DNA of 37,251 bases. Source: a virus. The number at the start of each line of letters is the position of its first letter. Within the stretch, counting starts at the first letter, position 1. Below the pieces are notes generated by a model. It did no database searches, was not told the DNA's origin, and saw only the letters and a program-made list of their open reading frames with translations. Position numbers and translations under genes: made by a program. The stretch covers positions 1 through 37,251 of the IMG/VR virus record IMGVR_UViG_3300013103_000004, one strand, 5' to 3'. Shown here piece after piece: positions 10,291-28,833 of the stretch.

Positions 10291-10320
10291 TAAAAAAGAC
10301 CGTCAAAACCGACGGCCTGT
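10291..10320 (-). terminator. Leader terminator before the adaptor gene
   Basis: Read leftward: GGCCGTC, a GGTTTT loop, then GACGGTC and TTTTTT. It is a 7-bp stem with one G.U and a six-U tract, placed between the promoter at 10351-10359 and the adaptor start at 10277. An upstream AAAAAGAC in the leader can pair with the GTCTTTTT end, so an alternative (anti-terminator) fold is possible. Confidence 0.75.
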
Positions 10321-10350
10321 ATCAATAGTCTTTTTGATAATTGGTAACTT

Positions 10351-10359
10351 AGTATAACA
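10351..10359 (-). promoter_or_regulatory. Extended -10 promoter for the adaptor-nozzle-fibre-lysis block
   Basis: TGT-TATACT on the minus strand, just downstream of the stop of the 1313-residue gene. No -35 at the right distance is seen; TTGACA at 10364-10369 is only 7 bp away and cannot serve. Transcription would begin near 10344 and meet the terminator at 10291-10320 after about 45 nt. Confidence 0.55.
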
Positions 10360-10360
10360 T

Positions 10361-13300
10361 TCATGTCAAGAACCCCCCTTTTGATACTTTCATTGTAGGT
10401 AATTTAGCTACCCTAATCTTTCTTACTTTTTGGGGTTGTTTGATTTTGATAGCTTTGTATAGTTTCTTATCCCTAACAATTTTAGAACTTGGGGCTTTAG
10501 TTAGTTTCAAAGGCTTTAATTTACTAGAACTCAATTTAGGCATTTTAACTTTAGATATTGTTATTTTTCGCCTAGTTATCCTTATTTTTCGTCCTTTTCC
10601 CCCATAAGACTTAATCTTTCCCCCGCTATTATATTTACTAACACTAACACCCATTTCACGCAATTTCTTAACTACACTTTTAGTTAATACTTTAGCCTCA
10701 AGCATTTTGTTTACCGTATCATTAAACTCTTTACCTTTAAGGCCTTTTAATTTACTACTCGCCCACTTAGCCCTTTCATCAACTGTTTGACCCCCACCTG
10801 ATTTATAAGTGTCTAATTGAGCATTAAATGCCATTTCTGGGCGACTTTCCTCCATCTTAGCAAGCATATCTTTAGCCAAGTTTAATTTCTGTTGATTGTC
10901 GGCAATATCATATTGGCGGTCATATTCATCATATTCACTTCTAGCTTCATAAGGTAGCGTTTTAGCTTTTTTCTTATACCTACTTAAATCTGATGCCGTT
11001 TCCTTATAAACTGCGTTAAATGTCTCTTGGTCTTGGGGAATAGTTTGGTCAACACTACTATTGATTGGTTCTACCTCTTTAATTTTTATTTTTCCTCGAA
11101 GGGCGTCAATCCTTTTTTTAGCAACCTTCTCAGTAATTTTCCCAGTTAATCTAAGTTTATTAACCGACTTTATCTTACCCTGAATACTTTTAGTTTTAGC
11201 CTTTGCATAATACTGGTTGGTTTCCTTTTGTTTAGCTACTTGCTCTGGTCCAAATTGCTGGACTTTAATTCCTGGATAAGTTCTTAGGGCTGCTTGTATT
11301 GGCGTTAATGTTCTACCGTAAAAGTCTTCCTTACCCTGTAGAGACTTGCTTAAATCAATAAGGTTATTCGCAATGGGGATGTTATATTGTCTGCCAAGAT
11401 ACCTTAATCTATTTATATTTCTTTCTCCAGTAGTGAGTGTTGAACCTGTATATTTATTAGAATTGGGGTCGGCTATAGATTTACCTCTGAAATCAGTATC
11501 CGCCATAATAGACAAGAATGGTCCTATATCGGGAGAAGAACCTAACGTCTTTTTGCTTGGGGTTTCAAACGGCATATAATCTGAAATAGTTGAAGAAGTC
11601 GAAGATTGTCCTGGTCCGGGATAAGTGTAAACCCCTAATAACCTAGAGGCATTAACTTCTCCCCAAGGTGTCTGGACTGCCATAGAAATATTAGTAAACG
11701 GAACTTTAGGACTGCCCAACCTCGCCTCTCTTACCTTTTGGTCTTCTTTGCTTTCTCCTGAAAGCCTACTCATAATGTTTGTGAGAAGTTTCCACGCTAT
11801 GACCGTCCCTATAACTCTCGCAGGTCTATCTATCATTGCATTTTTTGCCATTCTAACAAAATCACCCTTAAATCTAACAAAGGGGTTTCCAAATACCGGT
11901 AACTTAGCCCCGATATCATACAACCAACCAACTGTTCGATAATTTTGAAAACCACGATATGCCCTATCGATAGCCTCTTTATAAGACAGCCCCCTATCAA
12001 GCCAAGTTTTCACCGAAGCCACCTTAGCGACATCATCTACTGTCCCATATCCTTTCTCTATAGCATTGAGTATTTTCTTGGCATTACTTTCACCATATTC
12101 TAGTTTAATTTTTTTGGCAAAATCCGTTAAATCAGCCTTAAACACATCAGAACCCAAGATACCGTCTTTAACTAGTCTTCTATAAAGCTCTGATTGTTGA
12201 TTAACCTGTTGTTTCGCCCACTTTTGGTTTTTGGCAAAAGTTATCGGATTTATTCCATTAAACCACGCAAAAACATAATTGCTAGTTTTATTTCCCAACC
12301 TTACTGCGGGATTAAATATGGTAAATATCTTTTTATATGTCCTCCTTACGGGATTTCTATCGTAAATCTTTAATAAATCATTAACTCGGTTGGCAAAATC
12401 GTTGGTGAAATGAAGCCCAGATATATCATCCATTACATCTTTTCTAACCCACTTACCTGCCAATTCTCCATATGCTTTGTGGTCTGATAATTGCTCAAAT
12501 CCTGGTTTGGCAACATCTGATACCAACTCGGTTTTTCCTAACCAATCAAACATCTTATGAACCTCATCATTAAAAAGTGTCTGTTGAAGCCTTTTAGCCA
12601 TTAAGTAGGACGGGTCTTTTATAGAATTAGCCTGTTTCCAATCATCTATATCCTTGCGTTTAATAAACGAAGATAAATCAAATCTCTTTCTTGTCTGTTT
12701 TAAGAAGTCCGCCACTTCTGGGGGTAGGTCGTATTGCTCGTATGCACGGGCTATATATTTACCCCCTTTATTTTTCTCCCAAAGTTCCTTACTAATAAAG
12801 CCATTTTTGTAATTTGTATCATTTATAAAGTCCGATAGTGTCGAGAAGAATTTAAATGCCTTCAATTCTTTTTCGTTTAAGTCTGCTAATTTGACTTTTT
12901 TACCAGCTAACTCTGTGTCCATTACTGACCATATCTTTTCTAAGCTTTTCTTGTTGTTGTCAACCAGTCCAGCACCATAAATTTGAGAATCGTAAGCCAA
13001 TTTACTAGCATAGTTTGTTCCTCCAATAAACTTACCTAACCTACCTACTGTTTTATCTGTCTTACCCAATTCTCCTAAAAATCCCTGAGCCAATCTCGAT
13101 ATATTTCTAACAACCTTGTTTTTGCTTGTAACACCTTTTTCAACAGTATCGCTTACTGCTTTTTCCGCCTTTCTTAGACTATTTCCAATAAAACCTACAC
13201 CTTCTTTTGTGCCTGTTTGAAATGTTTCACCTTTAGGGGTTACTGTCCCATATATAGTTTGCTCTATAGCCTTGAGTTTATCTTTGGGATATTTTATTTT

Positions 13301-14302
13301 GGCCGAAGAAATCTTAATCGGTTGAGTAAGGTCTATCTTTCCACCCATTTTCTGTTGAATTGGTAGGTTTTTATACTTTTGAACCACATCACCTATTGTT
13401 TTTTTGATAACTGGACTCATCTTTGCGACATCTCCAATAGAGTCAACACCAGCGAAACCTATATTTGTTACTAGATTTTCTACAAACTCTCTTTTCATTG
13501 CGTCTGTCCATTTCTCCTTATCGCTACTGTTTAATGTTGCCCAAACTGGTGTTTCTACCATTGTTTCAATAACGGCACTCTTGAATAACTTCTTGCCTGC
13601 TACATCCGCCCATTTTTTAATTGATTGCTTTAGAGTATCTGCGGTCAAGGATACATTTAATGATTTGTTTGTTAGTGGTTTAAGTGCGGGGATATAATTA
13701 GCTAAGCTATTTACTAAAGAATTAGTCAATCGTGTTGTTCCTGCATTAGCCAAGCCTTGACCAAAACCTTGTTTGAAAACCGTAGCGTTATTTTGAGTAA
13801 GGGGTTTTTTGTTTATGACATTAGACCCCATATTAAGAGCTGTGTTAAAAACCCCACCACCTAAAGCTGAGGTTAGAGCAATATTTGGTTTCGCTAATCC
13901 ATATGCTGTCATACCTGCCGACAATGAGTGTTTTATATCTTGCCAAGGTTTGTAGTTTGTGGGTAGTTGCGATTGAGTATTATCTACCTTGTGTCTAAGC
14001 GCTACAGCAGGAGATGAGTATTCATATAAGTTTAATAAACTTTTACCTTGTTTTAATCTATTAAGAGTAGGTTTAACTAAATCTTGTGTTTGGCGTTGGA
14101 AATTAGCTAGATTTTGTCCAGTTTTAGACGACCAAAAGTTATCCCCTTTGTTATAAGTAGGATTAAGAGTTTGTGAGAAACTTTTAAGGTTTTTAGTTTT
14201 ATCAGCGATATTAACTAAAGGTGCGAACCTACCACCACGAACCCAACCCTCATCGTCCATTGTTTTGTTAAAGATAGATTTTATCTTGGATAGTAAATCC
14301 AT
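10361..14302 (-). CDS. Giant internal virion / DNA-ejection protein (1313 aa)
   Basis: The largest gene of the window. The N-terminal half is helical with small hydrophobic stretches (AGMTAYGLAKPNIALTSALG around residue 130). Around residues 660-860 it has an IFNPAVRLGNKTSNYVFAWF segment resembling the NPAxxxRN motif of large polyvalent/ejection proteins, and FGNPFVRFKGDFVRM. The last ~90 residues are extremely basic and Ser/Lys-rich (GKGRKIRITRRKITISKVKM), probably binding packaged DNA. Position between structural genes suggests an internal protein injected with the genome. No muralytic motif was recognised. Confidence 0.65.
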   Translation of the reverse strand: MDLLSKIKSIFNKTMDDEGWVRGGRFAPLVNIADKTKNLKSFSQTLNPTYNKGDNFWSSKTGQNLANFQRQTQDLVKPTLNRLKQGKSLLNLYEYSSPAVALRHKVDNTQSQLPTNYKPWQDIKHSLSAGMTAYGLAKPNIALTSALGGGVFNTALNMGSNVINKKPLTQNNATVFKQGFGQGLANAGTTRLTNSLVNSLANYIPALKPLTNKSLNVSLTADTLKQSIKKWADVAGKKLFKSAVIETMVETPVWATLNSSDKEKWTDAMKREFVENLVTNIGFAGVDSIGDVAKMSPVIKKTIGDVVQKYKNLPIQQKMGGKIDLTQPIKISSAKIKYPKDKLKAIEQTIYGTVTPKGETFQTGTKEGVGFIGNSLRKAEKAVSDTVEKGVTSKNKVVRNISRLAQGFLGELGKTDKTVGRLGKFIGGTNYASKLAYDSQIYGAGLVDNNKKSLEKIWSVMDTELAGKKVKLADLNEKELKAFKFFSTLSDFINDTNYKNGFISKELWEKNKGGKYIARAYEQYDLPPEVADFLKQTRKRFDLSSFIKRKDIDDWKQANSIKDPSYLMAKRLQQTLFNDEVHKMFDWLGKTELVSDVAKPGFEQLSDHKAYGELAGKWVRKDVMDDISGLHFTNDFANRVNDLLKIYDRNPVRRTYKKIFTIFNPAVRLGNKTSNYVFAWFNGINPITFAKNQKWAKQQVNQQSELYRRLVKDGILGSDVFKADLTDFAKKIKLEYGESNAKKILNAIEKGYGTVDDVAKVASVKTWLDRGLSYKEAIDRAYRGFQNYRTVGWLYDIGAKLPVFGNPFVRFKGDFVRMAKNAMIDRPARVIGTVIAWKLLTNIMSRLSGESKEDQKVREARLGSPKVPFTNISMAVQTPWGEVNASRLLGVYTYPGPGQSSTSSTISDYMPFETPSKKTLGSSPDIGPFLSIMADTDFRGKSIADPNSNKYTGSTLTTGERNINRLRYLGRQYNIPIANNLIDLSKSLQGKEDFYGRTLTPIQAALRTYPGIKVQQFGPEQVAKQKETNQYYAKAKTKSIQGKIKSVNKLRLTGKITEKVAKKRIDALRGKIKIKEVEPINSSVDQTIPQDQETFNAVYKETASDLSRYKKKAKTLPYEARSEYDEYDRQYDIADNQQKLNLAKDMLAKMEESRPEMAFNAQLDTYKSGGGQTVDERAKWASSKLKGLKGKEFNDTVNKMLEAKVLTKSVVKKLREMGVSVSKYNSGGKIKSYGGKGRKIRITRRKITISKVKMPKLSSSKLKPLKLTKAPSSKIVRDKKLYKAIKIKQPQKVRKIRVAKLPTMKVSKGGFLT

Positions 14303-14312
14303 TTAACCTCCT

Positions 14313-15560
14313 TTAACTGATAACATTTCCGAAGATGTCTTTTTCTTTCGTATTGGCGTTACCGTAGTAAACTGGTAATGTATAATTCCCTCCTGATATT
14401 TGAGGAGTGCCTTGGAATACTTGACCTTGCGGAAGATTAGCCTTAAATCCTGCTACACCTTGCATATTTTGTCTCAATTCAGCAAGATTTTTAGAATTTC
14501 CAATTGCCCACTGGTCTAACATCGACCTTCTATTTGAAGCCTCTTGGTCTATAGCATTTAATCTCTGTAATGCTTGATTTAGTAAGGTTTGGGATAGTGC
14601 GGCTAAATCCTTTCCCCTACCTACACCAGCCTGACCTATTTGACTTCTAATAGCATTTTGTTGTTCGTTGAACCAATTACCTAATTCAAGAACTTTGTTG
14701 TCCCTTTCAGTCGCAAGATTTCTTGTTTCTTGGTCGTAGATAGTTTTAAGGTTTGTTTCTCTTCGTCCTATCTCGCCTAATTGGTCTGCGGTTTGGGACA
14801 TAATATCCCCTCTCGCTTTACTTCCTAATTTCGTTAAAGCATAGGAGTATTGATTAGCGGCGGAACTATCACCAGCACCTCTCGAACCTAAATAGACATT
14901 CCCTGACATAAACATATTTCGTATGTTTGAAGCCATATCTTTTAAGTTTCTTGATTGGTTCTTTTCTAACGAAGCTCTTTCACCCTCTAGGTTAGTCAAA
15001 CCAGTATCTCTTTCAACTCCCAAATTACCCACACCAGTATTGTATTGGTTTTGGATAATCCCTTCTTGAGCTGATTTTTGTCCAGGCAAACCTTGATTCA
15101 ACATATTGTTTAGTTGCCCTATGTAAGAGTCCCAACCCGAATTTATATCGTTTCGCATTTGTGCAGAGTAATCAACACCGCCACCTCCACCAGGACCTCC
15201 AGTAGCGTTGTAATCGGCTCTCATAGCATTAACATCAGTCCACCCTCTATCTCTATATGCCTGTTCATTAAATCCGCCACCCGAATTACTTGGTGGAATA
15301 CTTGAATTAAAGTCTGTATTCTGTTGTGTAGTTGGGGATTGAGCATAAGTCGCTCTTCCACCCGTATACCTTGTTGGTCCACCAGCTATCCATTCACTTA
15401 TACCACCTTCTGGCTTACCCAATTGTTGTCCCAACCACTCAACGCTATTGCCTAATGTTTGTCGAATTGGCGACTGCCTCATCGTTTGACTTCTAATTTT
15501 CTCTCTAGCAAGCTGTGCGGTGCTTTTTAAGTTTGGCCATACATTAGCTAAGGAAAACAT
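14313..15560 (-). CDS. Gly-rich/coiled-coil internal structural protein (415 aa)
   Basis: The N-terminus is a basic helix (ANVWPNLKSTAQLAREKIRS). Residues ~65-130 are a disordered Gly/Ser/Thr/Asn-rich linker with a pure Gly run (GGPGGGGG). The C-terminal 270 residues form long helices rich in Gln, Asn and Glu (NNMLNQGLPGQKSAQEGIIQ, LTNLEGERASLEKNQ). This is typical of minor capsid or ejection proteins. It is encoded right upstream of the 1313-residue protein and is probably its partner. Confidence 0.6.
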   Translation of the reverse strand: MFSLANVWPNLKSTAQLAREKIRSQTMRQSPIRQTLGNSVEWLGQQLGKPEGGISEWIAGGPTRYTGGRATYAQSPTTQQNTDFNSSIPPSNSGGGFNEQAYRDRGWTDVNAMRADYNATGGPGGGGGVDYSAQMRNDINSGWDSYIGQLNNMLNQGLPGQKSAQEGIIQNQYNTGVGNLGVERDTGLTNLEGERASLEKNQSRNLKDMASNIRNMFMSGNVYLGSRGAGDSSAANQYSYALTKLGSKARGDIMSQTADQLGEIGRRETNLKTIYDQETRNLATERDNKVLELGNWFNEQQNAIRSQIGQAGVGRGKDLAALSQTLLNQALQRLNAIDQEASNRRSMLDQWAIGNSKNLAELRQNMQGVAGFKANLPQGQVFQGTPQISGGNYTLPVYYGNANTKEKDIFGNVIS

Positions 15561-15561
15561 A

Positions 15562-15777
15562 TTATTTTGTTAATTCAATAATTAATTCTTTAATTCTCAC
15601 AAGTTGTGTGGTGTTTTTGTCTATTGAACCACCTAATTGATTGAGAATAGGAAACACCCTTTGATAGAAACCCCTTGCAGGAAGTTCTGTAGCATCTCTT
15701 AAGAATAAATCTAATAACTCGTCTTTAAGCTCTCTGAGCTTGTCTACTTTCTTTTCTTGAAACTTCTTTTTTTTCAT
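15562..15777 (-). CDS. Small helical protein opening the internal-protein block (71 aa)
   Basis: Very basic first 12 residues (KKKKFQEKKVDK), then helices ending QLVRIKELIIELTK. Not recognised. It is the first gene after the leader terminator at 15795-15816, starts in an ATAGACT-ATG context without Shine-Dalgarno, and ends two bases before the next start. Confidence 0.65.
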   Translation of the reverse strand: MKKKKFQEKKVDKLRELKDELLDLFLRDATELPARGFYQRVFPILNQLGGSIDKNTTQLVRIKELIIELTK

Positions 15778-15794: not shown

Positions 15795-15816
15795 AAAAGC
15801 CCCCGTAAGGGAGCTG
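15795..15816 (-). terminator. Leader terminator before the internal-protein block
   Basis: Leftward: AGCTCCC-TTAC-GGGGGCTTTTT, a compact stem (one G.U) with a U-tract, 18 nt before the start of the 71-residue gene. It is nearly identical to the terminator before the portal gene. A second perfect hairpin, TGTTGGA/TCCAACA (15820-15836), precedes it in the leader. Confidence 0.8.
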
Positions 15817-15848
15817 TGTTGTTGGAATGTCCAACATATTGCTGACTT

Positions 15849-15878
15849 ATTCTAACCACAAGTGTTAGGATTTGTCAA
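15849..15878 (-). promoter_or_regulatory. Sigma70-type promoter before the internal-protein block
   Basis: TTGACA (15873-15878), 18-bp spacer, TAGAAT (15849-15854) on the minus strand. The -35 lies inside the last codons of the upstream glycosyltransferase. Transcription would begin near 15842, make a ~50-nt leader with two hairpins and reach the terminator at 15795-15816. Confidence 0.65.
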
Positions 15879-16929
15879 CCATTGAGAACCATTTAGCATA
15901 ATCCTCGATATGGTCTTTACATTGCCAATTCTTTTTTACCTCATTAAAAGCGTTTTCACCCATCTGTTTTCTTAATTCCTTGTCGTCTATTAACTTTTTA
16001 ATAGATTGATACCAATCTTCTGATGTTTTAGCGAGAAACCCTGTATTTTTAACCGCTTCTCGGTATTGTCTTATATCTTGATATACACCTGGTTTTTTAG
16101 CAGATGACATTTCTAAGAATTTAATTGAACTTTTAGCTTTAGTGTAGGTGCTTTCCTTTAATGGAACAACCATAATATCAGAATTGTCCATAAAATAAGG
16201 AAACTTCTCTTTAATCCACCCATAAACATCGACATCTCCAAAGGCATTTTCGTATCTCATTCCCCACATTTTTTTTAGTTTAGGCATCATCGCACCTACG
16301 GTTATGAGTTTCACATTAGGATATTCTTTCATTATCTTATCTATCCCTAAAACAAATTCATTTTCTTCTAGGTCAATAAAATGGGTAGTTGAGCCAAAAT
16401 GAAGTAATACAATCTCGTGTGTATCTTTAAACTTACTTCTATGGGAGTATAAATCTAAATCTATGTAATTTGGGAAAACTTTTATTTCTTTTTGATTAGT
16501 TTCGTGTCTGATTATGTTTTTTAAGTATCTTGAGGTAGTTGTCATATAATCCACCTCGTTGCATATAGTAGTGAAATTCTTTATTCCCTCACTGCCACGC
16601 TTATAAACTTTATGAGCCTGATTGTCTGGTAAAACACTCCATAATGCGTCGTCTACATCTAACACTAATTTAGTCTTATGGTGTTTAGCATAAATCTTCA
16701 TATGGGCGAAACCCCAAGCGTCGTTTAAGTAATTGAAGTAAATAATGTCGTATTTTTCTGCTACTTCTAGCCAATTCATCTTTTCTTTAGGGTTAAATAT
16801 ATGGATATCAAAATCGGGGTGTTTAGATAAATGCTCCATTGGTTGTATTATCCGGGCAAAATCCACTCCTGATACCCTATACTCTGTGCCGTGACTTGGA
16901 AATGCGAAGATTCTAATTTTGTGTTTCAT
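15865..16929 (-). CDS. GT-B glycosyltransferase, GT4-like (354 aa)
   Basis: Two-Rossmann GT-B architecture. The N-terminal domain has VSGVDFARIIQPMEHLS and VLDVDDALW. The C-terminal domain has the donor-site pattern DIMVVPLKESTYTKAKSSIK then KFLEMSSAKKPGVYQDI, where the acidic residue of FLEMSS matches the second Glu of the E-x7-E motif of GT4 enzymes. The end (DDKELRKQMGENAFNEVKKNW) is typical of retaining GT4 transferases. Likely adds a sugar to a growing glycan. Last gene of the glycan island; overlaps the preceding gene by 17 bases. Confidence 0.85.
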   Translation of the reverse strand: MKHKIRIFAFPSHGTEYRVSGVDFARIIQPMEHLSKHPDFDIHIFNPKEKMNWLEVAEKYDIIYFNYLNDAWGFAHMKIYAKHHKTKLVLDVDDALWSVLPDNQAHKVYKRGSEGIKNFTTICNEVDYMTTTSRYLKNIIRHETNQKEIKVFPNYIDLDLYSHRSKFKDTHEIVLLHFGSTTHFIDLEENEFVLGIDKIMKEYPNVKLITVGAMMPKLKKMWGMRYENAFGDVDVYGWIKEKFPYFMDNSDIMVVPLKESTYTKAKSSIKFLEMSSAKKPGVYQDIRQYREAVKNTGFLAKTSEDWYQSIKKLIDDKELRKQMGENAFNEVKKNWQCKDHIEDYAKWFSMVDKS

Positions 16930-17659
16930 TGATAAACCTTTCTAGCTTTCGCTCAAAAATACTAACTAAATGTTCGTAATGCTTTCTAAATCTAGCCGTG
17001 TCTAACTTTTTATCCTTTTTCCAACCTAATCCATTTATACCTGGTTCATAAAGACTAAAATCTTTTAGCTTGTCGCTTAAAACCACCACTCTACACCCAC
17101 ACAATCTAGCGACTTCAAACATAGCCGACCTATGGTCGTAAGAATATAAAACCTCACACTCGTTTAAAAAATCTGCTAATTTCTGTTGGTCTTGGGCAAA
17201 AGCTCTGTTAATAATAATACAGTCTTTGGGGTGTAGTCCTAAATCCTTTCCCTTTCCGAATAATACTGCTTTTTTGGTTCTTTTTCTGTGTTGGTCTTTA
17301 AATATGTGTAAGTTTAATATAGGTAAGAACATTGTGTGTTTTTCGTCTGTTTTATGCACAATTCTGGAAAAGCTATATATCTTATCTGTGGGGGGGTATG
17401 AGGTTGGTCCTGGTATTCCGTTTGATGACATCTCTCCTAATGGGGCTAATATATATCTAACGACCGTTTTAGCATTAAACGGATTACCATTAACTATTTC
17501 GGGATAAATGGCTATCGTGTCGGCTTGGACTCTCCTATTCATATAGGCTATTTGTCCTTTGGATAGCAACCAACCGTATAATCCCCACATAACCCTCACT
17601 CCACCTGATACTACATTCTGACCAACTAAATCCGGCGACATTAAAGAATAAGGCTTCAT
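16913..17659 (-). CDS. Second GT-B-like glycosyltransferase (248 aa)
   Basis: Begins with GQNVVSGGVRVMWGLYGWL, the Gly-rich first loop of GT-B transferases, and has LFGKGKDLGLHPKDCIII (around residue 130) and EVLYSYDHRSAMFEVARLCG (~185-205), which resembles donor-binding regions of GT4-type synthases. At 248 residues it is short for a full GT-B enzyme, but both lobes seem represented. Overlaps both neighbours. Substrate unknown. Confidence 0.65.
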   Translation of the reverse strand: MKPYSLMSPDLVGQNVVSGGVRVMWGLYGWLLSKGQIAYMNRRVQADTIAIYPEIVNGNPFNAKTVVRYILAPLGEMSSNGIPGPTSYPPTDKIYSFSRIVHKTDEKHTMFLPILNLHIFKDQHRKRTKKAVLFGKGKDLGLHPKDCIIINRAFAQDQQKLADFLNECEVLYSYDHRSAMFEVARLCGCRVVVLSDKLKDFSLYEPGINGLGWKKDKKLDTARFRKHYEHLVSIFERKLERFINETQN

Positions 17660-18402
17660 ATTGTTATGGTTACTCCTTTATAAGCTATGTCTTTTAAATA
17701 TCTAATAACTTCGGGTTTGAATTTGATATCTGTTCTGTCAAAATCCATTTTGGGGAAGTCTTTACCCCTAGCCCAATGGTAGGCTTTAACTACTTGATTG
17801 TTATACATCAATTTCCCACCGCCTATATAAAAGTCTTGTTCTCCGCCTAATGATTTACAACCTAAATAATTCTTTTCTCTATCCCATATTAACCGCTTCA
17901 TTTGTTTAACCTTTGAGTTTTGATACCAAATTAAATTAAGAACATCGTTTTCTTGTCTTAGATATTTCATTGCACTTTTGTTGGCTTTTTCCCATATATC
18001 CCAAAACTTTGGGTTTGTAGACCCCACCATACCAGCTTGGACATAATCTAACTCGCTTATATTATCTAAACTAGCATTCTCATAAAGATTAAAGTTCCAC
18101 ACCCCACCTACTTCCCAATCTGTGTCTAAAACCTCGCTTAATCTGCCTGTAATTATCGTATCAGCATCTATATTGATTATCCTGTCGTAGTCTTTAAGTA
18201 ACAATTTAGCAAAGGTTGGTTTAGCCTGATAAAAGTTAATCCCCTTTAAGGCGAATACTTTGTCTATCATATCTTGGCGGAATACTATCAAATCAATATC
18301 GGGGTGAAACTTCTTGAATGAGTTGATTAAGATATGTGTTCCGACCTTATAGTAATAATCATCTGAAACGATAGTAAAAAAGCAGGTTTTAAGGTTAGTC
18401 AT
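17656..18402 (-). CDS. GT-A glycosyltransferase, GT8/glycogenin-like (248 aa)
   Basis: Carries the metal/nucleotide-sugar DxD motif, Asp79-Ala-Asp81 in IINIDADTIITGRL, preceded by KLLLKDYDR as in GT8/glycogenin-like enzymes. The C-terminal segment SLGGEQDFYIGG followed by YHWARGKDFP gives the acceptor-side residues usual in the fold. Predicted to transfer a hexose or related sugar from UDP-sugar. Part of the coupled glycan operon. Confidence 0.85.
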   Translation of the reverse strand: MTNLKTCFFTIVSDDYYYKVGTHILINSFKKFHPDIDLIVFRQDMIDKVFALKGINFYQAKPTFAKLLLKDYDRIINIDADTIITGRLSEVLDTDWEVGGVWNFNLYENASLDNISELDYVQAGMVGSTNPKFWDIWEKANKSAMKYLRQENDVLNLIWYQNSKVKQMKRLIWDREKNYLGCKSLGGEQDFYIGGGKLMYNNQVVKAYHWARGKDFPKMDFDRTDIKFKPEVIRYLKDIAYKGVTITI

Positions 18403-19060
18403 TTCTTGTAAATAATATAATTATGGCACTTGAGGCGTATCTTTTAGGGGTATAACCCAAACTACTCATATACTCTACCAATTCCATCCAGTTGGGGAAG
18501 TGCATTTCCATCATAATAGATTTTATTCTTGGTGCAACTTTTCTAAACCCCTCGCTCCTGTAAATCATATCCTCCGCTCCCTCTACATCTGACTTACAGA
18601 AATCTACCGTATCGATGTTGTTTTCTTCCATAAAGGTATCAAAACTAATAGTCTTAACCATTTCACCCTTGTCGGACTTTAACACCAATGAATGGCAAGT
18701 TTGGTTATTATCATTGAGGTTTAACATCATTTCGCCATTTTTATCAGCCATAGCCATATTAAATATCTCGACATTATCCCAATGATTAAACTCTTTGTTC
18801 TTTTTTAAGGCTGTGAAGTGAATAGTGGATGGCTCTATGGCGTAAATCTTTTTACAATGCGAGCGAAAATGGTCGGTAATTAAGCCTATATTTGCACCAA
18901 TATCAAGCATTACCATATCATTTTTGCTATTTAGAATATCAGTGTAAACTCCTTCAAAATAAATTTCCCTATAAATATAAGGAATGTATAAATTGTCAAA
19001 AGGGACTTTTTTTCCCTCTTTGTCGGTAACTGGATAATAAATTGCTCCTAATTTTGTCAT
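18395..19060 (-). CDS. FkbM-family methyltransferase
   Basis: SAM-binding motif I is clear (LDIGANIG, residues 52-59), followed by IYAIEPS (motif II acidic residue) and the FkbM-specific CKSDVEGAE (155-163). These enzymes O-methylate sugars or polyketides; within a glycosyltransferase cluster, O-methylation of a sugar hydroxyl is the likely reaction. Length (221 aa) is normal. Coupled to neighbours by 4- and 8-base overlaps. Confidence 0.9.
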   Translation of the reverse strand: MTKLGAIYYPVTDKEGKKVPFDNLYIPYIYREIYFEGVYTDILNSKNDMVMLDIGANIGLITDHFRSHCKKIYAIEPSTIHFTALKKNKEFNHWDNVEIFNMAMADKNGEMMLNLNDNNQTCHSLVLKSDKGEMVKTISFDTFMEENNIDTVDFCKSDVEGAEDMIYRSEGFRKVAPRIKSIMMEMHFPNWMELVEYMSSLGYTPKRYASSAIIILFTRND

Positions 19061-19554
19061 TTTCTAATTAAACTAATAAACGAAGGTTGTTTGCTTTCAA
19101 TGGCTTGTTTTAGGACATCCGCCCCGTCTTGTTTGGTTTGAGGCCAGTATTGTCTTACATTCGGAAAACAAGCTAATGCTTTTTTGGCGTCTGGACTTTG
19201 GTGTGTCCAACCGTCTTCTTTGTAATCCATATCCCTACCAGCTCCGACTAAAATTACTGGTGCTTTTTCGTGGTCAATGTAATTCCGTATCCATTCAAAT
19301 GGTCGAAATAAAACAAAGTTTGTAATTGAGTAAACAATCGGTATTTTACCCCTATATGTCATTCCCACCGCTATTCCTACCATCGCTTGTTCTGAAGCAC
19401 CACAATTAAAAAACCTATCGGGATAATCATCTCTGATAGTATTAAACATACCGTAACCTAAATCGCCTGTTAATAAACAAATATCTTTATTCTCTTTCAT
19501 CTGTTGGTGTAATTCGTAGGCGAAATACCCTCTTTGTGATTCGTGTCTTTTCAT
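19057..19554 (-). CDS. Transketolase-like protein, pyrimidine-binding half
   Basis: Corresponds to the middle (Pyr) domain of transketolase. The catalytic Glu that activates thiamine diphosphate is kept in NCGASEQAMVGIAVGM, and GWTHQSPDAKKAL matches the conserved THQ segment. The third, C-terminal domain of full transketolases is absent, as in two-subunit transketolase-like enzymes. Overlaps the gene for the other half by 4 bases, so the two should assemble into one enzyme. Confidence 0.88.
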   Translation of the reverse strand: MKRHESQRGYFAYELHQQMKENKDICLLTGDLGYGMFNTIRDDYPDRFFNCGASEQAMVGIAVGMTYRGKIPIVYSITNFVLFRPFEWIRNYIDHEKAPVILVGAGRDMDYKEDGWTHQSPDAKKALACFPNVRQYWPQTKQDGADVLKQAIESKQPSFISLIRK

Positions 19555-20159
19555 TTTATCTCCTTATATTTTTCTTCATCTAACTTAACATAATGACCGT
19601 CTATGCCTTGTAAGAAATCGGGGTAATCAAATAAATTAACTCTATAGAATAAGACTGGGTAAAAAGTTTTTAACCTTCGTTCCAAATCGTCTAAGTCAAT
19701 CCTCCCATAGGCTGAATAACCGTTAGCAATAACCGAAACTCTTAGGTTCTCTAGTCTAAAATCTCCTGCTATCCTTAAGGCTTCCCAAACCGACCCTTCG
19801 GCACAAGCACCGTCTGAGGTAACTAAATAAACTGTTCTACTTCTGTCTGCTAAAGCCATTCCTACTGCGACTGTTTCGGCTTGACCTAAACTCCCCCCAC
19901 TTACAAAAATACCGTCTTTTAAACTTCTTTCGGCGTGTGTCCCCATTCTTTTAATTAAATCTTCGGCATTGACTCCTTTCTCCTCTAGTAATACATACAA
20001 AGCTAATGCAGAATGGCTATTACCTAATACCACCTCATCGTTTGGTTCTTTAACTCTATATATGTCTTCTAAGGCGGGAAGTGTCGTTAGACAACTGCTA
20101 ATGTGTGTTAGCCCGTGTTTGTAACTTAAATCAATTATCCTTTTCTCTAAGGTATTCAT
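19551..20159 (-). CDS. Transketolase-like protein, diphosphate-binding half
   Basis: Corresponds to the PP domain of transketolase. Visible elements: LGNSHSALALY (the conserved His), GGSLGQAETVAVGMAL and the ThDP/Mg motif TSDGACAEGSVWEALRIAG ... ANGYSAYG, with SDG replacing GDG but keeping the Asp and Asn metal ligands. With the partner at 19057-19554 it would transfer a two-carbon ketol unit, probably to make a branched or unusual sugar for the glycan island; the substrate is inferred, not seen. Confidence 0.88.
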   Translation of the reverse strand: MNTLEKRIIDLSYKHGLTHISSCLTTLPALEDIYRVKEPNDEVVLGNSHSALALYVLLEEKGVNAEDLIKRMGTHAERSLKDGIFVSGGSLGQAETVAVGMALADRSRTVYLVTSDGACAEGSVWEALRIAGDFRLENLRVSVIANGYSAYGRIDLDDLERRLKTFYPVLFYRVNLFDYPDFLQGIDGHYVKLDEEKYKEIK

Positions 20160-20910
20160 CTACCATCTCCTTTATTGAAACTTCTAATGTCTTTTGAGGT
20201 AACCAACCCCAACTCCTTGACCTAAAATTATCCGATACCCACTTTTTTGTGTCATACGGTCGCAAGGAATCAACCAAATTAACTCTAATTTTCTTTTCCG
20301 TTACTCTTTCGACTATTTCTAGGACTTCTTGGTTTGAATAAGATATTCCAGTGCCTAATTCAAAAACTCCTCCAACTTTATGGTTTGATAAGTTCAAAAT
20401 CCCATTAACTAAGTCTTCTACATCTATAAAATCGTGTCGTGGTTCGGGAACAAAGTTTACGGTTTCTCCACTATAACTCGCCCTAATTAAAGTTGGGATT
20501 AAATGTTCTTTTTGTTCTCCTATCCCTGTAATTGACATTGGTCTGATTATACAAATAGGTAGTTGATATTTCTCTCTAAAAGCTAGTAAAACTTCTTCTG
20601 TCGCCCTTTTAGTTCTTGAATACATTGTTTGGGTGGGTAATTTAACCGATGAAGTGCTAAAAAAAACAAACGACTCGAAATCTGATGACCTAGTTATAAT
20701 ACTTAGTGGGTCGAAAACATTAGCCCTAACGATTAATTCGTCATTATTATGGTGGTGCATATTCCCATAAGTGGAAAGGAAAAAAAATCTCTTGAATTTG
20801 TCTAGTTTGACCGTTTGAATATCTTGGTGTCTTATTGGGGTGCAGTCTATTCGCCTGCATAAATGGCTACCTACAAAACCATTGCTTCCTGTAATGTAAT
20901 TTTCTATCAC
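20131..20910 (-). CDS. NAD-dependent sugar epimerase/dehydratase (extended SDR)
   Basis: Rossmann motif TGSNGFVG (residues 7-14, the extended-SDR GxxGxxG) and catalytic Tyr97/Lys101 in YSRTK, with Ser near residue 87 (FFSTSSV). The C-terminal part (RHDFIDVEDLVNGIL, GVFELGTG) is typical of nucleotide-sugar epimerases/dehydratases. At 259 residues it is slightly short. The start is GTG at 20910, as no ATG fits. First gene of the glycan operon, driven by the promoter at 20937-20967; overlaps the next gene by 29 bases. Confidence 0.88.
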   Translation of the reverse strand: MIENYITGSNGFVGSHLCRRIDCTPIRHQDIQTVKLDKFKRFFFLSTYGNMHHHNNDELIVRANVFDPLSIITRSSDFESFVFFSTSSVKLPTQTMYSRTKRATEEVLLAFREKYQLPICIIRPMSITGIGEQKEHLIPTLIRASYSGETVNFVPEPRHDFIDVEDLVNGILNLSNHKVGGVFELGTGISYSNQEVLEIVERVTEKKIRVNLVDSLRPYDTKKWVSDNFRSRSWGWLPQKTLEVSIKEMVDEYLREKDN

Positions 20911-23816: not shown

Positions 23817-23980
23817 AATGCTACTTTTAATTTTCCATCACTGGTAACCTTAATTCTTTGTAAGTTAGTGCCATCAAACCCAATCATCTCTACTGCTAAT
23901 ATATCAAAATCAGTATCGTAGGACTTTGTAAATATATTCTGTGGGGTTCTCTCTGTTTGAGTGTTATCTTTATTTACCAT
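23813..23980 (-). CDS. Stand-alone copy of the tail-fibre anchor (55 aa)
   Basis: A 55-codon frame starting MVNKDNTQTERTPQNIF. Aligned without gaps to residues 1-55 of the 805-residue fibre, 32 positions are identical, including KSYDxDFDILAVE and GxDGTNLQR. It ends where the fibre's linker begins and overlaps the fibre start by 4 bases. It may be the remnant of an older fibre gene, or a short protein that competes for or caps fibre sockets. Confidence 0.8.
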   Translation of the reverse strand: MVNKDNTQTERTPQNIFTKSYDTDFDILAVEMIGFDGTNLQRIKVTSDGKLKVAL

Positions 23981-24380
23981 ATCTTGCCAAATTAAACTTT
24001 ATTTTATCGCAATTTCTCAAGAATTTAACATATTCTGAAACGACCTCAATTTTAACTATTGGTCTTTCGTTTTTGTCTATGTTAGTTATCTTTTCCATTT
24101 TTTTTAATGCTTCTTTTATGGCTTCGACATTATTGGGTAGTTCTCCTTTTTCAATTCTATCGTTAAAAAATTCTTGTATAAGTGATATTTCTTTTGAAAA
24201 ACCTCCATTTGGGTCATTCCAAGTATCACCTAGTTTGTAATATTCGGCTACAAAAGGTCTGCCATTTTCAGATTCGTAATCCTTATAAGGAACGATTGTC
24301 TTATCTGTGCTAACGGTAGTCTTATCTTTTGCTTCGGTCTTTATATCTACAGTTGGTTCTGTTGGGGTTCTAAATGGCAT
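23970..24380 (-). CDS. Hypothetical structural-operon protein (136 aa)
   Basis: Thr/Lys/Asp-rich disordered first 30 residues (TVDIKTEAKDKTTVST), then a helical domain (SLIQEFFNDRIEKGELP, AIKEALKKMEKITN). GAGGAG lies close upstream of the ATG. Not recognised; the place between capsid and fibre suggests a virion or assembly role. Confidence 0.65.
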   Translation of the reverse strand: MPFRTPTEPTVDIKTEAKDKTTVSTDKTIVPYKDYESENGRPFVAEYYKLGDTWNDPNGGFSKEISLIQEFFNDRIEKGELPNNVEAIKEALKKMEKITNIDKNERPIVKIEVVSEYVKFLRNCDKIKFNLARYGK

Positions 24381-24597
24381 TTCTTCTCCTCAACATATCT
24401 TCTCTAATATCTTTGGTGTTTTGAGTTTTCCCTTTTCTTGTTTCTCTTAGTAAAGCCTCTCTGGCACTTTTAGTCCAACTGTCTTCGTTTCTTATCTTTT
24501 TACCAGTTTCCTCAATTACTTTTTTCATAACTGGGTCGCGAGTGTTTTTATACTCCCTGCGGAGTTGTTGTAAATCTGCTTGTCTTGTTTTGTCCAT
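24370..24597 (-). CDS. Small basic helical protein after the capsid gene (75 aa)
   Basis: Highly charged and helical throughout (RQADLQQLRREYKNTRD, REALLRETRKGKTQ). Not recognised. It starts in an AT-only leader (two copies of a ~16-bp A/T repeat at 24605-24640) with no Shine-Dalgarno. Overlaps the next gene by 11 bases. Confidence 0.65.
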   Translation of the reverse strand: MDKTRQADLQQLRREYKNTRDPVMKKVIEETGKKIRNEDSWTKSAREALLRETRKGKTQNTKDIREDMLRRRNAI

Positions 24598-24643
24598 AAT
24601 TTTATTAATTTTATTTTAACAAAAATTTTATTTTAACAAATGC

Positions 24644-24673
24644 GGGGATACAGTTAAGGGCGTCTGTATCCCC
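24644..24673 (-). terminator. Perfect 10-bp hairpin after the major capsid gene
   Basis: GGGGATACAG and CTGTATCCCC pair perfectly around a 10-nt loop, 9 nt beyond the capsid stop. What follows leftward is AT-rich but not a clean U-run, so it may be a partial terminator or a 3' stabilising structure that raises capsid mRNA relative to downstream genes. Confidence 0.65.
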
Positions 24674-24681
24674 TATCTCGA

Positions 24682-25635
24682 CTAAACGCTAGTGAAACGA
24701 CAACTTAATGCCCAATTACTGTTAAGTAATTTGGTTGCATAAGAACCCGCCCACGAAATTTTAGTGATTCTACCAACAGGTGAGTTTGAATCCACCACGT
24801 TAGGAAGAATATAAAGTTTCGGAACGTCTTGTGCTAAGTCGTAAGTTCCAAATGCGTCAGAGCCGTGAACATAAGTATAGAACCTTGTAACACCCGAAGA
24901 TGCTGTTGATGCCGCTTCTGTTCCAGACGATAAGTCTTTATTCAAAAGCCATCGAACCTGGTATAACTCACCCATCTCTCCTTTGTAAAGTTTCTTTACA
25001 TCAGAATAGACTTTGGAATTAATCCAAGTTGTATCTCCCAGCAATCTGTGTTTGCTATAAGGGTCTGTCTTCCCCATAAAAGTCCCGTCTTTATAAGCAC
25101 GAGCCTTATTTAGTTCAAGCTGTCTCACCATCAAACGGATATTACAAGCATCCAAAACATCGCCTGAGGCGATGCTGGCTACATCGTGTCCATTTGGGTA
25201 ATAGGCTGTCCCATTTTCAAGCTCATTCCTAACCAAACGGTTAAGAGTTTCGCCCATATTTTGACCGACTAATTCGACTTTCTCCTTAGCACCTGAATCA
25301 ATAGAAACCAAAGTCTCCATCTTTCCAGAGTTTACGGTTAAACCATAGGCTGAAAGAGTCATCGAAACGGTGCAAGCTGTGACGGCACAGGTTACAGGGT
25401 TAGAAGCCTCTCCCAATGGGGTAGTAATAATACTTAGTGGTTCGTAACGCGTAAAGTTTACGGTGTGTCCTGAATTAACAGGGTGAGTTCTTTTTTGAGA
25501 ACCCTCTTTCAATATCAAGTCATACTCCGCCCTAGCTAAGAAAACTTTTTCGTAGTAGGTCATTATCTCTGCAGATAACGATGAAGTAGTATTGACATTG
25601 GTTGCACCGGATATTCCGCTACCGACTACTGCCAT
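24682..25635 (-). CDS. Major capsid protein (N4-gp56 / P22-like HK97 fold)
   Basis: 317 residues. HVNSGHT-type P-loop region here reads NSGHTVNFTRYEPL (~54-67), followed by the E-loop-like TPLGEASNPV and the YGLTV ... GQNMGETLNRLVRNEL helix, the pattern of N4-gp56 family capsid proteins. It follows a scaffold gene, as expected. AGGAG precedes the ATG. It forms the icosahedral shell. Abundant expression is suggested by the strong hairpin after the gene. Confidence 0.85.
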   Translation of the reverse strand: MAVVGSGISGATNVNTTSSLSAEIMTYYEKVFLARAEYDLILKEGSQKRTHPVNSGHTVNFTRYEPLSIITTPLGEASNPVTCAVTACTVSMTLSAYGLTVNSGKMETLVSIDSGAKEKVELVGQNMGETLNRLVRNELENGTAYYPNGHDVASIASGDVLDACNIRLMVRQLELNKARAYKDGTFMGKTDPYSKHRLLGDTTWINSKVYSDVKKLYKGEMGELYQVRWLLNKDLSSGTEAASTASSGVTRFYTYVHGSDAFGTYDLAQDVPKLYILPNVVDSNSPVGRITKISWAGSYATKLLNSNWALSCRFTSV

Positions 25636-25672
25636 ATTTTTTACTCCTATTTAATTTTACGCCAAGTTAAGG

Positions 25673-26416
25673 TTAAGTCTGAACAATCCCCAGTTCCCTT
25701 TCTAGTTCTTGTATAGACTTTTCCTCTGCTGATTTCGTTGGCTTTCTAACTGAAGTTGGTTTTACAGCGGTTTGCGAAGCCTGTTTGGCTAATTCCTCGC
25801 CTACCTTTCCAACTTCTTTGGCTACCGACCTTTTATAAGGTTTCATCAGTTTATCAACAAAGCCTTTGACATCTGCGGAGTAGGGGTTGGCTCGAACCTT
25901 TGCCTCTACTGCTTCAGTAACCGATTGAGATAAGTCTTTATCAAAAAGGTCATTATCAGGGTCGAGTTCGGGATATTTCTGAACAACCGCTTGAGTGTCA
26001 GACTGTATTTTCAAAGACGCACTTTGCTGTTTAAGTCGCAAATTAACAATCGCATCAGCTCTTCTGGCAACATCGTTACCATATTGCTCTGGGGTTATTT
26101 CTGCCCCCGGTTGGATTGGAGGTGTGTATTGTGGCACATCAGGCGAACCGCCTGTTAGTTCCTCAACCCTTTCAGATAGCGATTTGATTTGCTCCTCAGC
26201 TTGGCGTGCCTTTTCTTCAGCCTGCTTCGCACGAGCATTCAATTCTCTAACTCGATTAGAAAAGCCCTTTTTAGACTTCTCACCTGTTTCAGCTTCAGGT
26301 TGAACCTCCTCCGTCGATTCGGTTTCCTTGACTTCCTCAGTAGCTTCAGATACTGGCGTGGTATCAGCGTTTGCTTCCTCGTTTTCGTTTAACGCCATCT
26401 TTTGACTTTCGTCCAT
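25673..26416 (-). CDS. Capsid scaffolding protein
   Basis: Acidic, disordered N-terminus (EATEEVKETESTEEVQPEAE), a coiled coil at ~55-90 (NARAKQAEEKARQAEEQIKS), a Pro-rich hinge (DVPQYTPPIQPG) and a basic, helical C-terminus (KPTSVRKPTKSAEEKS). This layout and its place immediately before the capsid gene are diagnostic of scaffolds. Starts in an AAAACT-ATG context without Shine-Dalgarno. An in-frame ATG five codons in could also serve. Confidence 0.85.
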   Translation of the reverse strand: MDESQKMALNENEEANADTTPVSEATEEVKETESTEEVQPEAETGEKSKKGFSNRVRELNARAKQAEEKARQAEEQIKSLSERVEELTGGSPDVPQYTPPIQPGAEITPEQYGNDVARRADAIVNLRLKQQSASLKIQSDTQAVVQKYPELDPDNDLFDKDLSQSVTEAVEAKVRANPYSADVKGFVDKLMKPYKRSVAKEVGKVGEELAKQASQTAVKPTSVRKPTKSAEEKSIQELERELGIVQT

Positions 26417-26502
26417 AGTTTTAATAACTTTTAACCATACCCGTAAGGTGATATGAGATTACCCAAGCAAAGAGCTTGATTGTAGGCACATAATGCACAC
26501 AA

Positions 26503-26715
26503 TTAAACCCTCTTCTTTAAGATTGGCTTACCCTCCTTAGTTTCACCAACCATAACCTTATCAGGTCCAATAAATATTGCGTGTTGTAGGTCGCAACTTT
26601 TACAAACGAGGTAAAAACCTTGTTGCCTCCAGTTATGGCGACCTTTGGGAACGAATTTAAAAACTTCCTCATAGGTTTCATTTACCTCCTCCGCTTTCAC
26701 ACGCTTCCTTTGCAT
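26503..26715 (-). CDS. Small CxxC phage protein (70 aa)
   Basis: The core HNWRQQGFYLVCKSCDLQHA, then IFIGPDKVMVG, matches a small protein found near portal/scaffold genes of other phages, function unknown. Only one CxxC pair plus His is present, so a metal site would need a partner. Overlaps the preceding gene by 38 bases. A competing ATG frame in the overlap gives a less protein-like product. Confidence 0.65.
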   Translation of the reverse strand: MQRKRVKAEEVNETYEEVFKFVPKGRHNWRQQGFYLVCKSCDLQHAIFIGPDKVMVGETKEGKPILKKRV

Positions 26716-26995
26716 CGTTGACTTTGTTTAGAAACTTTCTAACAATGTCTTTGACTAAACTAATAACTATGGTGTTTCGTCCTATTTCTTCAAATGTAGC
26801 CCCGCTAGTAATGGCTGTGTCGTTGATTTTATCTAGGTCGGATATCATCTTTTCTATTATTTTAACTAAATACTGCCAACCGTGTGATTTGGACATTGTA
26901 TATAACGAGGTTTCCTCATCGGTTGGTCCTTCAGACTTTTTTGTTTTAGTTAGTGCTGGTATGTTAAAAAACTTTGGTTTTATAGCTTCAGACAT
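26678..26995 (-). CDS. Hypothetical head-region protein (105 aa)
   Basis: The frame is open further upstream, but the ATG at 26995 has GGAGG 5 nt before it and overlaps the portal stop by 8 bases, so it is chosen. Helical core (HGWQYLVKIIEKMISDLDKI, VISLVKDIVRKFLNKV) and Gly-rich end. Not recognised. Confidence 0.65.
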   Translation of the reverse strand: MSEAIKPKFFNIPALTKTKKSEGPTDEETSLYTMSKSHGWQYLVKIIEKMISDLDKINDTAITSGATFEEIGRNTIVISLVKDIVRKFLNKVNDAKEACESGGGK

Positions 26996-28748
26996 TTTGA
27001 CCTCCTTGTGGCATACCTTGTTGTGCTGGCACACCTTGACTTTGCATTTGTTGCACCGCTTGAATAAATTGTTGAGTGCCTTCATCTAAAATCCGGTTAG
27101 TCATATCTTCTGGCTTTTCTTCTTCAATTATCTTATCCCAGTCTTGTAGACCTGAGTTAACTATTGACCTTTTAAGTAATTCTCCTACAGATACTTTGAT
27201 ATTTCCTAATTGGGCATAACCTGTTTGTATGGCTTGCTGTTTCATTTCGGGGTCTTGAAGTATCATACTTAATAATCCGTTTACATTTTCTTGCTGGGAT
27301 TTTTGGTCAACTAAATAAGTCGAACCACTTACAATTTCATAATCATATAAAATATTACCTATCTTTCCTTTTGAGATAGTTAACTTGCCTGTCTTTTTGT
27401 CATATATATCTTGAATATCTTCATACTGTGAGGCTAATTCTTCTATTTCATCTTTGAACATTCTAATTGCTACCCCACCAGAGTTCTTTTTAGACATTAA
27501 ATTGACCATTTTGTTTACAACTTTAGTAATAAATTGCTCCATATAATACCTATCAGCATTATCTCTTGTGTTTTCTCTTGCCCCCTGCATTTTCAAGGCT
27601 TCTGGGGTTTTACCAAACCCTGCTTCGGTTTGTTTGGTAACTGAGGTATCGGTAGTCCCAAACATATTAAGTAATGAGGCATTGGCTATTTGGAATGTGT
27701 TATTGAAGGTGGATATACCTAAGGGACTTAGATTGACTGGTTGGACTGCATTATTTATTTGATTTCTAACCAACCATTTTGCCCCTGCTTTCATTTTAAT
27801 TGAACTCATAGAGGCTATGTTGTCTTTGTTGATTAGAACTGGAGGATAAATGCTTGTTTTAACTCCGTCTAGATATAAGTTCCAAACAGAATTAACCACG
27901 TGTTGCATCGTTCCTCCTCTTTCGGCATCGCCCATACCCATAAAGTCGTCCATTAAAGGAATAGAATATTTTTGAACTACTGGCAATTCTCCGTTATCGT
28001 GGGGATTCTTTATTTCTCTGAAGTTTAAATCGGCGTCAACACAATAATCTGTCCACTTGTCTTTTTCATACATTGTTAAGACTTCGTAATAGCCATCTGA
28101 TTTGGTTCCCTCTGCTTGGGGGTATTTGTCATCAGTCCTTTGTGTTTTCTCTCCTGCTGATTTTTGGGGGTTAGATTTTTTCTTTAATATGTCTACAATC
28201 TTTTTGATATTTTTAAACTCTTTGTCTTTTAACTTTTTCTCAAAGAATGAGATTGGTTGCCAACTTCTAACGATAATATAATCACTATCTTCAATTGATA
28301 CCGCCCCTACTTGAGGGAATACATCTCGTATATTAAGTAACCATAAATCAGGACCAGCGTAACCATTCTTTTTAACTGTCCAATCCACTAAACCATAGTA
28401 ACTACCATATAAACTAGAATAAATATCAACCATCCGCAATTTAGTAAGGAAATTGAATTGAGAATTAGCGTTTTTAAGAATATATTTGTCTAGGACTAGG
28501 TTCATTAACCTTGATGTTCCCTCATCATTTCTGCTTATAGCCCTGACTTTTCCTGTAGAGTTTTGAGCCATAACACGATATGCCCTTTCAATCATCAAAG
28601 TCGAAAGTTTAGGGTCAAAGACGTGCGACCTGGCATCGTTGTGGTTTGATAAGGAATTATGAAACAGTTTCTCATATTCATCCCAATCATCCCTCTTTTG
28701 TTTAAGGTATTCGTATGACGCTTGTTTTCTTTCTAAAATTATGCTCAT
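26988..28748 (-). CDS. Portal protein (podoviral type)
   Basis: The translated product from the ATG at 28748 is 586 residues and starts MSIILERKQASYEYLKQKRD; an upstream in-frame start at 28784 would read through the terminator stem and is rejected. The N-terminal YEKLFHNSLSNHNDARSHVF and WLLNIRDVFPQVGAVSIED segments resemble P22-type portals. The C-terminus is Gln/Gly-rich (QAVQQMQSQGVPAQQGMPQG). Forms the dodecameric DNA channel. The ATG follows directly on a seven-T run, without a normal Shine-Dalgarno. Confidence 0.85.
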   Translation of the reverse strand: MSIILERKQASYEYLKQKRDDWDEYEKLFHNSLSNHNDARSHVFDPKLSTLMIERAYRVMAQNSTGKVRAISRNDEGTSRLMNLVLDKYILKNANSQFNFLTKLRMVDIYSSLYGSYYGLVDWTVKKNGYAGPDLWLLNIRDVFPQVGAVSIEDSDYIIVRSWQPISFFEKKLKDKEFKNIKKIVDILKKKSNPQKSAGEKTQRTDDKYPQAEGTKSDGYYEVLTMYEKDKWTDYCVDADLNFREIKNPHDNGELPVVQKYSIPLMDDFMGMGDAERGGTMQHVVNSVWNLYLDGVKTSIYPPVLINKDNIASMSSIKMKAGAKWLVRNQINNAVQPVNLSPLGISTFNNTFQIANASLLNMFGTTDTSVTKQTEAGFGKTPEALKMQGARENTRDNADRYYMEQFITKVVNKMVNLMSKKNSGGVAIRMFKDEIEELASQYEDIQDIYDKKTGKLTISKGKIGNILYDYEIVSGSTYLVDQKSQQENVNGLLSMILQDPEMKQQAIQTGYAQLGNIKVSVGELLKRSIVNSGLQDWDKIIEEEKPEDMTNRILDEGTQQFIQAVQQMQSQGVPAQQGMPQGGQNV

Positions 28749-28776
28749 AAAAAAAGCCCCCATCAGGGAGCTGTCC
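28749..28776 (-). terminator. Leader terminator abutting the portal start codon
   Basis: Leftward: AGCTCCC-TGAT-GGGGGC followed by seven Ts that touch the ATG of the portal gene. The stem is almost the same as at 15795-15816. In full-length mRNA the stem would also bury the start region, so it may control translation as well as transcription. Confidence 0.8.
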
Positions 28777-28804
28777 GCACGCATTGTGCCATTGCTAATA
28801 ATTT

Positions 28805-28833
28805 AATATAACACTAAGACTGGTTGTTGTCAA
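28805..28833 (-). promoter_or_regulatory. Promoter for the portal-capsid block
   Basis: TTGACA (28828-28833), 17-bp spacer, TATATT (28805-28810) with TGT extension, minus strand. Consensus -35 and near-consensus -10. Expected start near 28798, giving a ~45-nt leader that ends at the terminator before the portal ATG. A 16-bp tandem A/T repeat lies just upstream (28834-28865). Confidence 0.75.

Follow-up and report, generated by a model that had tools for sequence, protein, structure and literature searches.

Late gene control in phages is usually pictured as depending on a single late promoter, on an RNA polymerase of the phage or on a single antiterminator. In the lambdoid pR'-tR' arrangement with its Q protein, and likewise with AlpA and GafZ, a promoter, a short leader and an intrinsic terminator, which is overcome by antitermination, precede the virion or lysis genes (PMC9371919, PMC11150451). 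The Q and AlpA systems require a binding element embedded in the promoter as well as a -10-like pause element (PMC9371919), and GafZ, starting from the promoter of a gene-transfer-agent cluster, bypasses the terminators within that cluster (PMC11150451). The put RNA of HK022, which is about 70 nt long, contains two stem-loops and binds RNA polymerase, is located before early genes (PMC9378689). In RAT and ANTAR leaders, stabilization of an antiterminator shortens the terminator stem and separates this stem from the U-tract; in the ANTAR-controlled eut, nas and ami operons, one system has terminators ahead of several of its genes (four in eut), and a leader stem-loop overlaps each terminator (PMC3369936).

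Here we describe what looks like an undescribed on/off switch, one per virion gene block, in a family of uncultured phages. The window, by which we mean the whole stretch of DNA that was analysed, is a genome record of 37,251 b whose ends carry a direct repeat of 123 b (1-123 = 37129-37251), and hence the phage genome is probably complete. It encodes terminase genes, a portal-position protein, a major head protein, an endolysin, a RecE-like exonuclease, a glycosyltransferase with further sugar genes, and a protein with a weak SU10-type adaptor match. The glycosyltransferase, FkbM methyltransferase, transketolase-like and epimerase genes form a block within the late region (15865-20910), which nearly all relatives keep. 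No relative of the portal was found among 50,697 annotated phage records and, judged by this search, the lineage has no annotated members. Only two matches were obtained in the genome collection, both of them contigs of metagenome-assembled genomes, one labelled Chloroflexi. The relatives used below are portal homologues of 39-97% identity gathered from viral contigs.

Promoter-leader-terminator units before the virion modules

A preliminary description of this DNA had placed such units before the portal, internal-protein and adaptor blocks and had claimed that two of the terminators share AGCTCCC..GGGGGC. All three units were found at these locations, the one before the adaptor with an extended -10 as its only promoter element, and the common terminator sequence is indeed that of U3 and U4. 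The parts of the units are as follows, P2 being the leader hairpin and P1 a short pairing between the leader and the terminator.

28833-28749, minus strand: portal unit (U3), whole
28805..28833, minus strand: U3 promoter, TTGACA-17-TATATT with extended -10 TG, just past the stop of the open reading frame 28855-29037
28794..28796, minus strand: U3 P1 5' strand, AGC
28777..28789, minus strand: U3 leader hairpin P2, GCAC-AATGC-GTGC, retained in relatives with compensatory changes
28771-28769, minus strand: U3 P1 3' strand, GCT, which are terminator bases
28755..28772, minus strand: U3 terminator, AGCTCCC-TGAT-GGGGGCT followed by T7, with the U-tract reaching to 28749
26988..28748, minus strand: portal-position gene, 586 aa, weak PHROG connector/head-tail adaptor match; its ATG (28748) abuts the U-tract
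15878-15790, minus strand: internal-protein unit (U4), whole
15849..15878, minus strand: U4 promoter, TTGACA-18-TAGAAT, overlapping the stop of the glycosyltransferase gene 15865-16929
15841..15843, minus strand: U4 P1 5' strand, AGC
15820..15836, minus strand: U4 leader hairpin P2, TGTTGG-ACATT-CCAACA
15814-15812, minus strand: U4 P1 3' strand, GCT, which are terminator bases
15798..15815, minus strand: U4 terminator, AGCTCCC-TTAC-GGGGGCT
14313..15777, minus strand: first genes of the U4 module, 71 aa (15562-15777, ATG 15777) and 415 aa (14313-15560)
10359-10291, minus strand: adaptor unit (U5), whole
10351..10359, minus strand: U5 promoter, extended -10 TGTTATACT only, without a good -35
10344-10343 with 10317-10316, minus strand: U5 P1, 2 bp only, CC with GG
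10320..10339, minus strand: U5 leader hairpin P2, TATCAA-AAAGACTA-TTGATA
10297..10318, minus strand: U5 terminator, AGGCCGTCGGTTTTGACGGTCT
9612..10277, minus strand: adaptor gene, 221 aa, weak SU10_adaptor match, ATG 10277

The distance from the -10 to the U-tract is nearly constant in the three units (49, 50 and 51 nt). As the portal ATG follows the U-tract without a gap, a promoter cannot fit between them, and any mRNA that contains the portal start has crossed the terminator. A portal start at 28784, in an open reading frame called through the terminator, was discarded in favour of 28748 as it is missing in relatives. A leader peptide was likewise rejected: an AUG occurs in some leaders and is missing from many.

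Scans of the window for promoters only or terminators only gave counts not above those of shuffled sequence. We therefore scanned for the combination, i.e. a promoter with a strong terminator 40-75 nt downstream, against a background of 60 dinucleotide shuffles; promoters were scored against the sigma70 consensus, which may not be that of the host. The joint scan returned 4 units in the window, compared to 0.12 expected from the shuffles, and the portal and internal-protein units are two of the four. The adaptor unit was missed on account of its weak -35, its promoter being an extended -10 only. It is the combination of promoter and terminator, together with its conservation, that is above chance.

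For the conservation of placement, we counted terminators up to 230 nt upstream of the portal start, and full units by strict automatic criteria. All 39 portal loci have a strong terminator upstream, and 32 of them a full promoter and terminator unit; the adaptor start has a terminator in 10/11 and a full unit in 6/11 cases. Values for the epimerase gene are in between (4/12 and 2/12), and each of the 17 remaining late genes has 0-3 terminators, with one full unit among all 17. Ten further complete or near-complete genomes also have units at their portal, p14313 and adaptor boundaries. Reading of the sequences located the p14313 unit in L013, L052, L065, L067, L068, G005, G006, G007, G009 and G012, some of these loci sharing records, and none was seen in G010. 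Extra units precede the epimerase gene in G008 and L013 and follow the g7615 homologue in G005. The earlier proposal of one unit per module is thus borne out, with the same boundaries carrying units in diverged relatives. The portal leaders of L008, L029, L032 and L034 are about 13-16 nt longer than the others, and in some of them a second copy of a GCAAT-like sequence lies close to where transcription starts.

The other two of the four units returned by the joint scan are on the plus strand and do not figure in the preliminary description.

5111-5195, plus strand: strong promoter-like sequence, then a bidirectional terminator between convergent operons
32413-32515, plus strand: promoter, short RNA and terminator, absent from the 97% relative L061

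Neither resembles U3-U5, and both were set aside. The unit at 5111-5195 is kept in the 97% relative, and its transcription would proceed antisense into late genes. The other one is included in a segment (32260-32515) that starts with the inverted repeat TTTACTTCTTTTAAGAC / GTCTTAAAAGAAGTTAA (32260-32276 and 32388-32404); L061 is without this segment, and its flanks join there.

As these two units have no dependent late gene, they would suit a reading in which all the units are genes for small RNAs of about 50 nt that act in trans, their placement serving co-regulation and the virion genes being transcribed by leakage from upstream. The units do have their own promoter and terminator, a near-constant length and two hairpins. 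However, the two additional ones are a bidirectional terminator and a unit missing from the 97% relative, the conservation is mostly of structure and of terminator-arm pairing and not of sequence, and units are confined to module starts. We consider this reading very improbable.

A likely antiterminator in the leader RNA

The P2 hairpin is present in nearly all leaders, and its commonest form is a 4-bp stem with a UNUAAU hexaloop. Across diverged leaders the stems vary and the loop is often UNUAAU, and this conservation suggests recognition. In an ungapped alignment of 13 portal leaders, which were picked for stem and loop size and do not represent a random set, 52 of 52 cells are paired and all four pairs have changed on both sides; the covariation score of this alignment was reached by none of 500 shuffles. 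Among 35 unselected leaders, better folding than in shuffles is apparent for the set as a whole only (mean z -1.05, Fisher p=7e-6). MAFFT put the P2 stems, which are short and variable, out of register. Conserved stems, on which the preliminary description had staked its proposal, are present in the leaders of the relatives and covary. An operator palindrome in the DNA was rejected as an explanation of P2: a fixed operator would not vary in stem and loop length as P2 does between leaders, and this favours an RNA hairpin. Rfam gave no match at gathering score for the units of the window and nine relatives. Matches to Atu_C8 at two units were far below the gathering score and were dismissed; they probably reflect the GGGGGCUUUUU terminator.

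A side-by-side comparison of the leaders shows that bases a few nucleotides 5' of P2 complement the start of the terminator 5' arm. This pairing, P1, is AGC:GCU in U3 and U4 of the window, and its other forms include GCU:GGC, GUC:GAC, GUCU:AGAC, GAGC:GCUC, GGGU:ACCC, GAGGU:ACCUC, UGCCA:UGGCA, GGCGUC:GACGCC and UAGUC:GACUA. It was examined by position-specific permutation, in which the terminator-arm starts of 52 non-redundant units were swapped among the units. The true pairing beats the swapped partners (p=2e-5, a value that, like the other P1 p-values, is optimistic through shared ancestry, though near-identical leaders were thinned out), and control windows just upstream and deeper in the terminator arm were not significant (p=0.35 and 0.19). 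As P1 was spotted by inspection and a first test with loose windows failed (p=0.32), only the 12 units gathered after the idea arose constitute a held-out test, and these gave p=0.013. The U5-class leaders alone gave p=0.12, being alike among themselves, and a chimera folding test of P1 gave p=0.0009.

When the RNA is cut ahead of the terminator 3' arm, most of 53 leaders fold P1 around P2; the predicted fold of the full-length U3, U4 and U5 RNA is the terminator. P1 measures just 2-3 bp in several leaders, including L016/L019 and U5 of the window (two G-C pairs), and is not predicted in a few relatives. Since P1 engages the start of the terminator 5' arm, P1 and P2 together are likely an antiterminator that is mutually exclusive with the terminator.

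The explanation we favour, with a probability of a little under 60%, is that each virion module is gated by a promoter and an attenuator leader whose P1-P2 antiterminator is stabilized by a factor. A sigma70-type promoter and such a leader would stand ahead of each of the three virion-gene modules. In the default state, an RNA of about 50 nt would fold the terminator and transcription would end just short of the first gene. In the alternative fold, an antiterminator of about 30-35 nt would consist of P1 (2-6 bp) around an asymmetric internal loop and of the hairpin P2. As the 3' strand of P1 is made of the first bases of the terminator 5' arm, formation of P1 would trim the terminator at its base and part it from its U-tract. 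Given the shortness of P1 and the preference of full-length RNA for the terminator, we infer a trans-acting stabilizing factor and, with it, regulation and timing: made in infection, this factor would bind P2 and the internal loop, lock P1-P2 and admit RNA polymerase to the module.

It may also be that a promoter and a leaky terminator passively set the level of each module and block transcription from upstream, with P1-P2 fixing a constitutive read-through fraction and no regulator involved. The terminators do end the upstream operons too (the stop codons are 43-83 nt upstream), and co-transcriptional folding can form P1-P2 first. A simple insulator, however, would have its promoter after the terminator, and the conserved loops of diverged leaders point to recognition, so that we find such dosage control improbable.

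Relation to known antitermination systems and a candidate factor

The proposed factor-stabilized attenuator has its nearest counterparts in the RAT and ANTAR leaders. In RAT leaders, which belong to the BglG/SacY/LicT family with its CAT domain, part of the 5' arm of an intrinsic terminator also belongs to a hairpin whose internal loops are asymmetric (PMC3369936). An overlap of this kind is present in the phage leaders. RAT leaders, however, are found in sugar operons, whereas the phage leaders stand before virion modules, three times in one genome, and the CAT RNA-binding domain PF03123 (CAT_RBD) is absent from 10 phage genomes, although the host might supply a CAT protein. The phage shares with ANTAR systems several terminators per system, each overlapped by a leader stem-loop, but the ANTAR target consists of two hairpins that have A1 and G4 in their loops, whereas the phage leader has one P2, most commonly with the hexaloop UNUAAU, and the ANTAR domain PF03861 is absent from the 10 genomes. 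The order of promoter and intrinsic terminator before late genes is that of Q control; unlike in lambdoid phages, there is one unit for each module, and an alternative fold is written into the leader RNA. As with put, a phage leader RNA with hairpins would promote terminator read-through, except that the second hairpin of the present leaders is the terminator itself. The anatomy fits RAT/ANTAR and not lambda Q or put, and neither a CAT or ANTAR protein nor an Rfam family was found: by sequence, what precedes each virion module of this lineage resembles a RAT/ANTAR-like expression platform, which would respond to a ligand.

Single leaders such as AGCGATGG appear by eye to have a convincing lambda-type pause element, but the shuffle test shows no enrichment, the -10-like element being present in the initial transcribed region of 17 of 35 leaders compared to 18.5 in shuffles. 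The Q family searched, PF06530, is absent from the 10 genomes. The preliminary description had likened the units to miniature pR'-tR' elements with module-by-module antitermination. The second half of this is supported by the module-wise units, the covarying stems and the read-through needed for the portal; the likeness to lambda does not go beyond the outline.

The missing pause-element enrichment and Q protein also argue against processive antitermination as performed by lambda N/Q or HK022 put, in which a factor is recruited by the leader, as DNA or RNA, or the leader itself acts on RNA polymerase, and later terminators are ignored too. P2 would then be a boxB- or put-like recruitment hairpin, which its variable stem and conserved loop would suit, and P1 would be incidental. 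The three modules need read-through, and a small basic protein gene lies directly upstream of the portal unit, much as the Q gene lies upstream of pR'. UCUUUA occurs ahead of P2 in some U5 and U4 leaders, which we take to be reminiscent of boxA. On the other hand, the P1 pairing is specific for the terminator-arm start, and put RNA has the two-stem-loop, polymerase-binding build described above. We regard a processive mechanism as unlikely.

The factor that would lock the P1-P2 antiterminator was sought among the phage genes, where two small ones stand out.

28855..29037, minus strand: g28855, 60 aa, with a conserved basic C-terminal motif [KR]Rx[KR]Y; adjoins the portal unit upstream in almost all relatives
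28967..29167, minus strand: g28967, in 11/11 genomes

g28855 is encoded in 11/11 genomes, with an invariant Arg within its conserved basic tail, and is the final cistron before the portal unit, on the strand of the terminase genes. Structural and sugar-modification genes excluded, only g28855, g28967 and two small genes after the portal are present in all 11 genomes; the early genes tested were shared no further than the 97% relative. A fairly confident structure model of g28855 is alpha-beta-beta (pLDDT 87). There was no convincing Pfam, PHROG, PDB or fold match and no known RNA-binding family, nor did any of the 50,697 annotated phage records contain a relative. Comparison of the profiles of g28855 and g28967 (E 5e-6) makes them likely paralogues. 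In a distant relative with 39% portal identity (L056:3016-3393), a 125-aa open reading frame seems to carry both small-protein motifs, as in a g28855-g28967 fusion.

g28855, perhaps with g28967, is the best candidate for the trans-acting factor of the leaders, and we predict this role tentatively. Its gene position could also fit a virion-assembly protein, and the P2 loops of U3, U4 and U5 of one phage are unlike one another, which sits badly with one shared factor. It is doubtful, if conceivable, that the g28855/g28967 proteins define a new phage-specific antitermination class, binding P1-P2 leaders unlike RAT, ANTAR, nut and put, with a distinct leader identity gating the head, ejection and tail modules separately. 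Still, the lineage appears to gate every virion module with a separate RNA switch. If this is true, the leaders would constitute a new RNA family, perhaps along with a new RNA-binding protein family, and they would offer promoter-switch-terminator parts of small size, as well as a model, readable directly in metatranscriptomes, of expression module by module.

Other elements of the genomes

A NinG (lambda Rap-like) homologue (4463-4894) is the final plus-strand gene of the window ahead of the convergent late operon; in lambda, ninG is near Q. Two sigma70 promoters of perfect consensus (32679-32707 and 34738-34766), both containing TTGACAGATTAGTAAAGATAG and with no terminator found downstream, are probably early promoters that share an operator. 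Inside an open reading frame, at 36201-36472, there is an array of 18-bp repeats. The late region of one relative (L023:14557-14748) contains a Group I intron (Rfam RF00028, E 2e-15).
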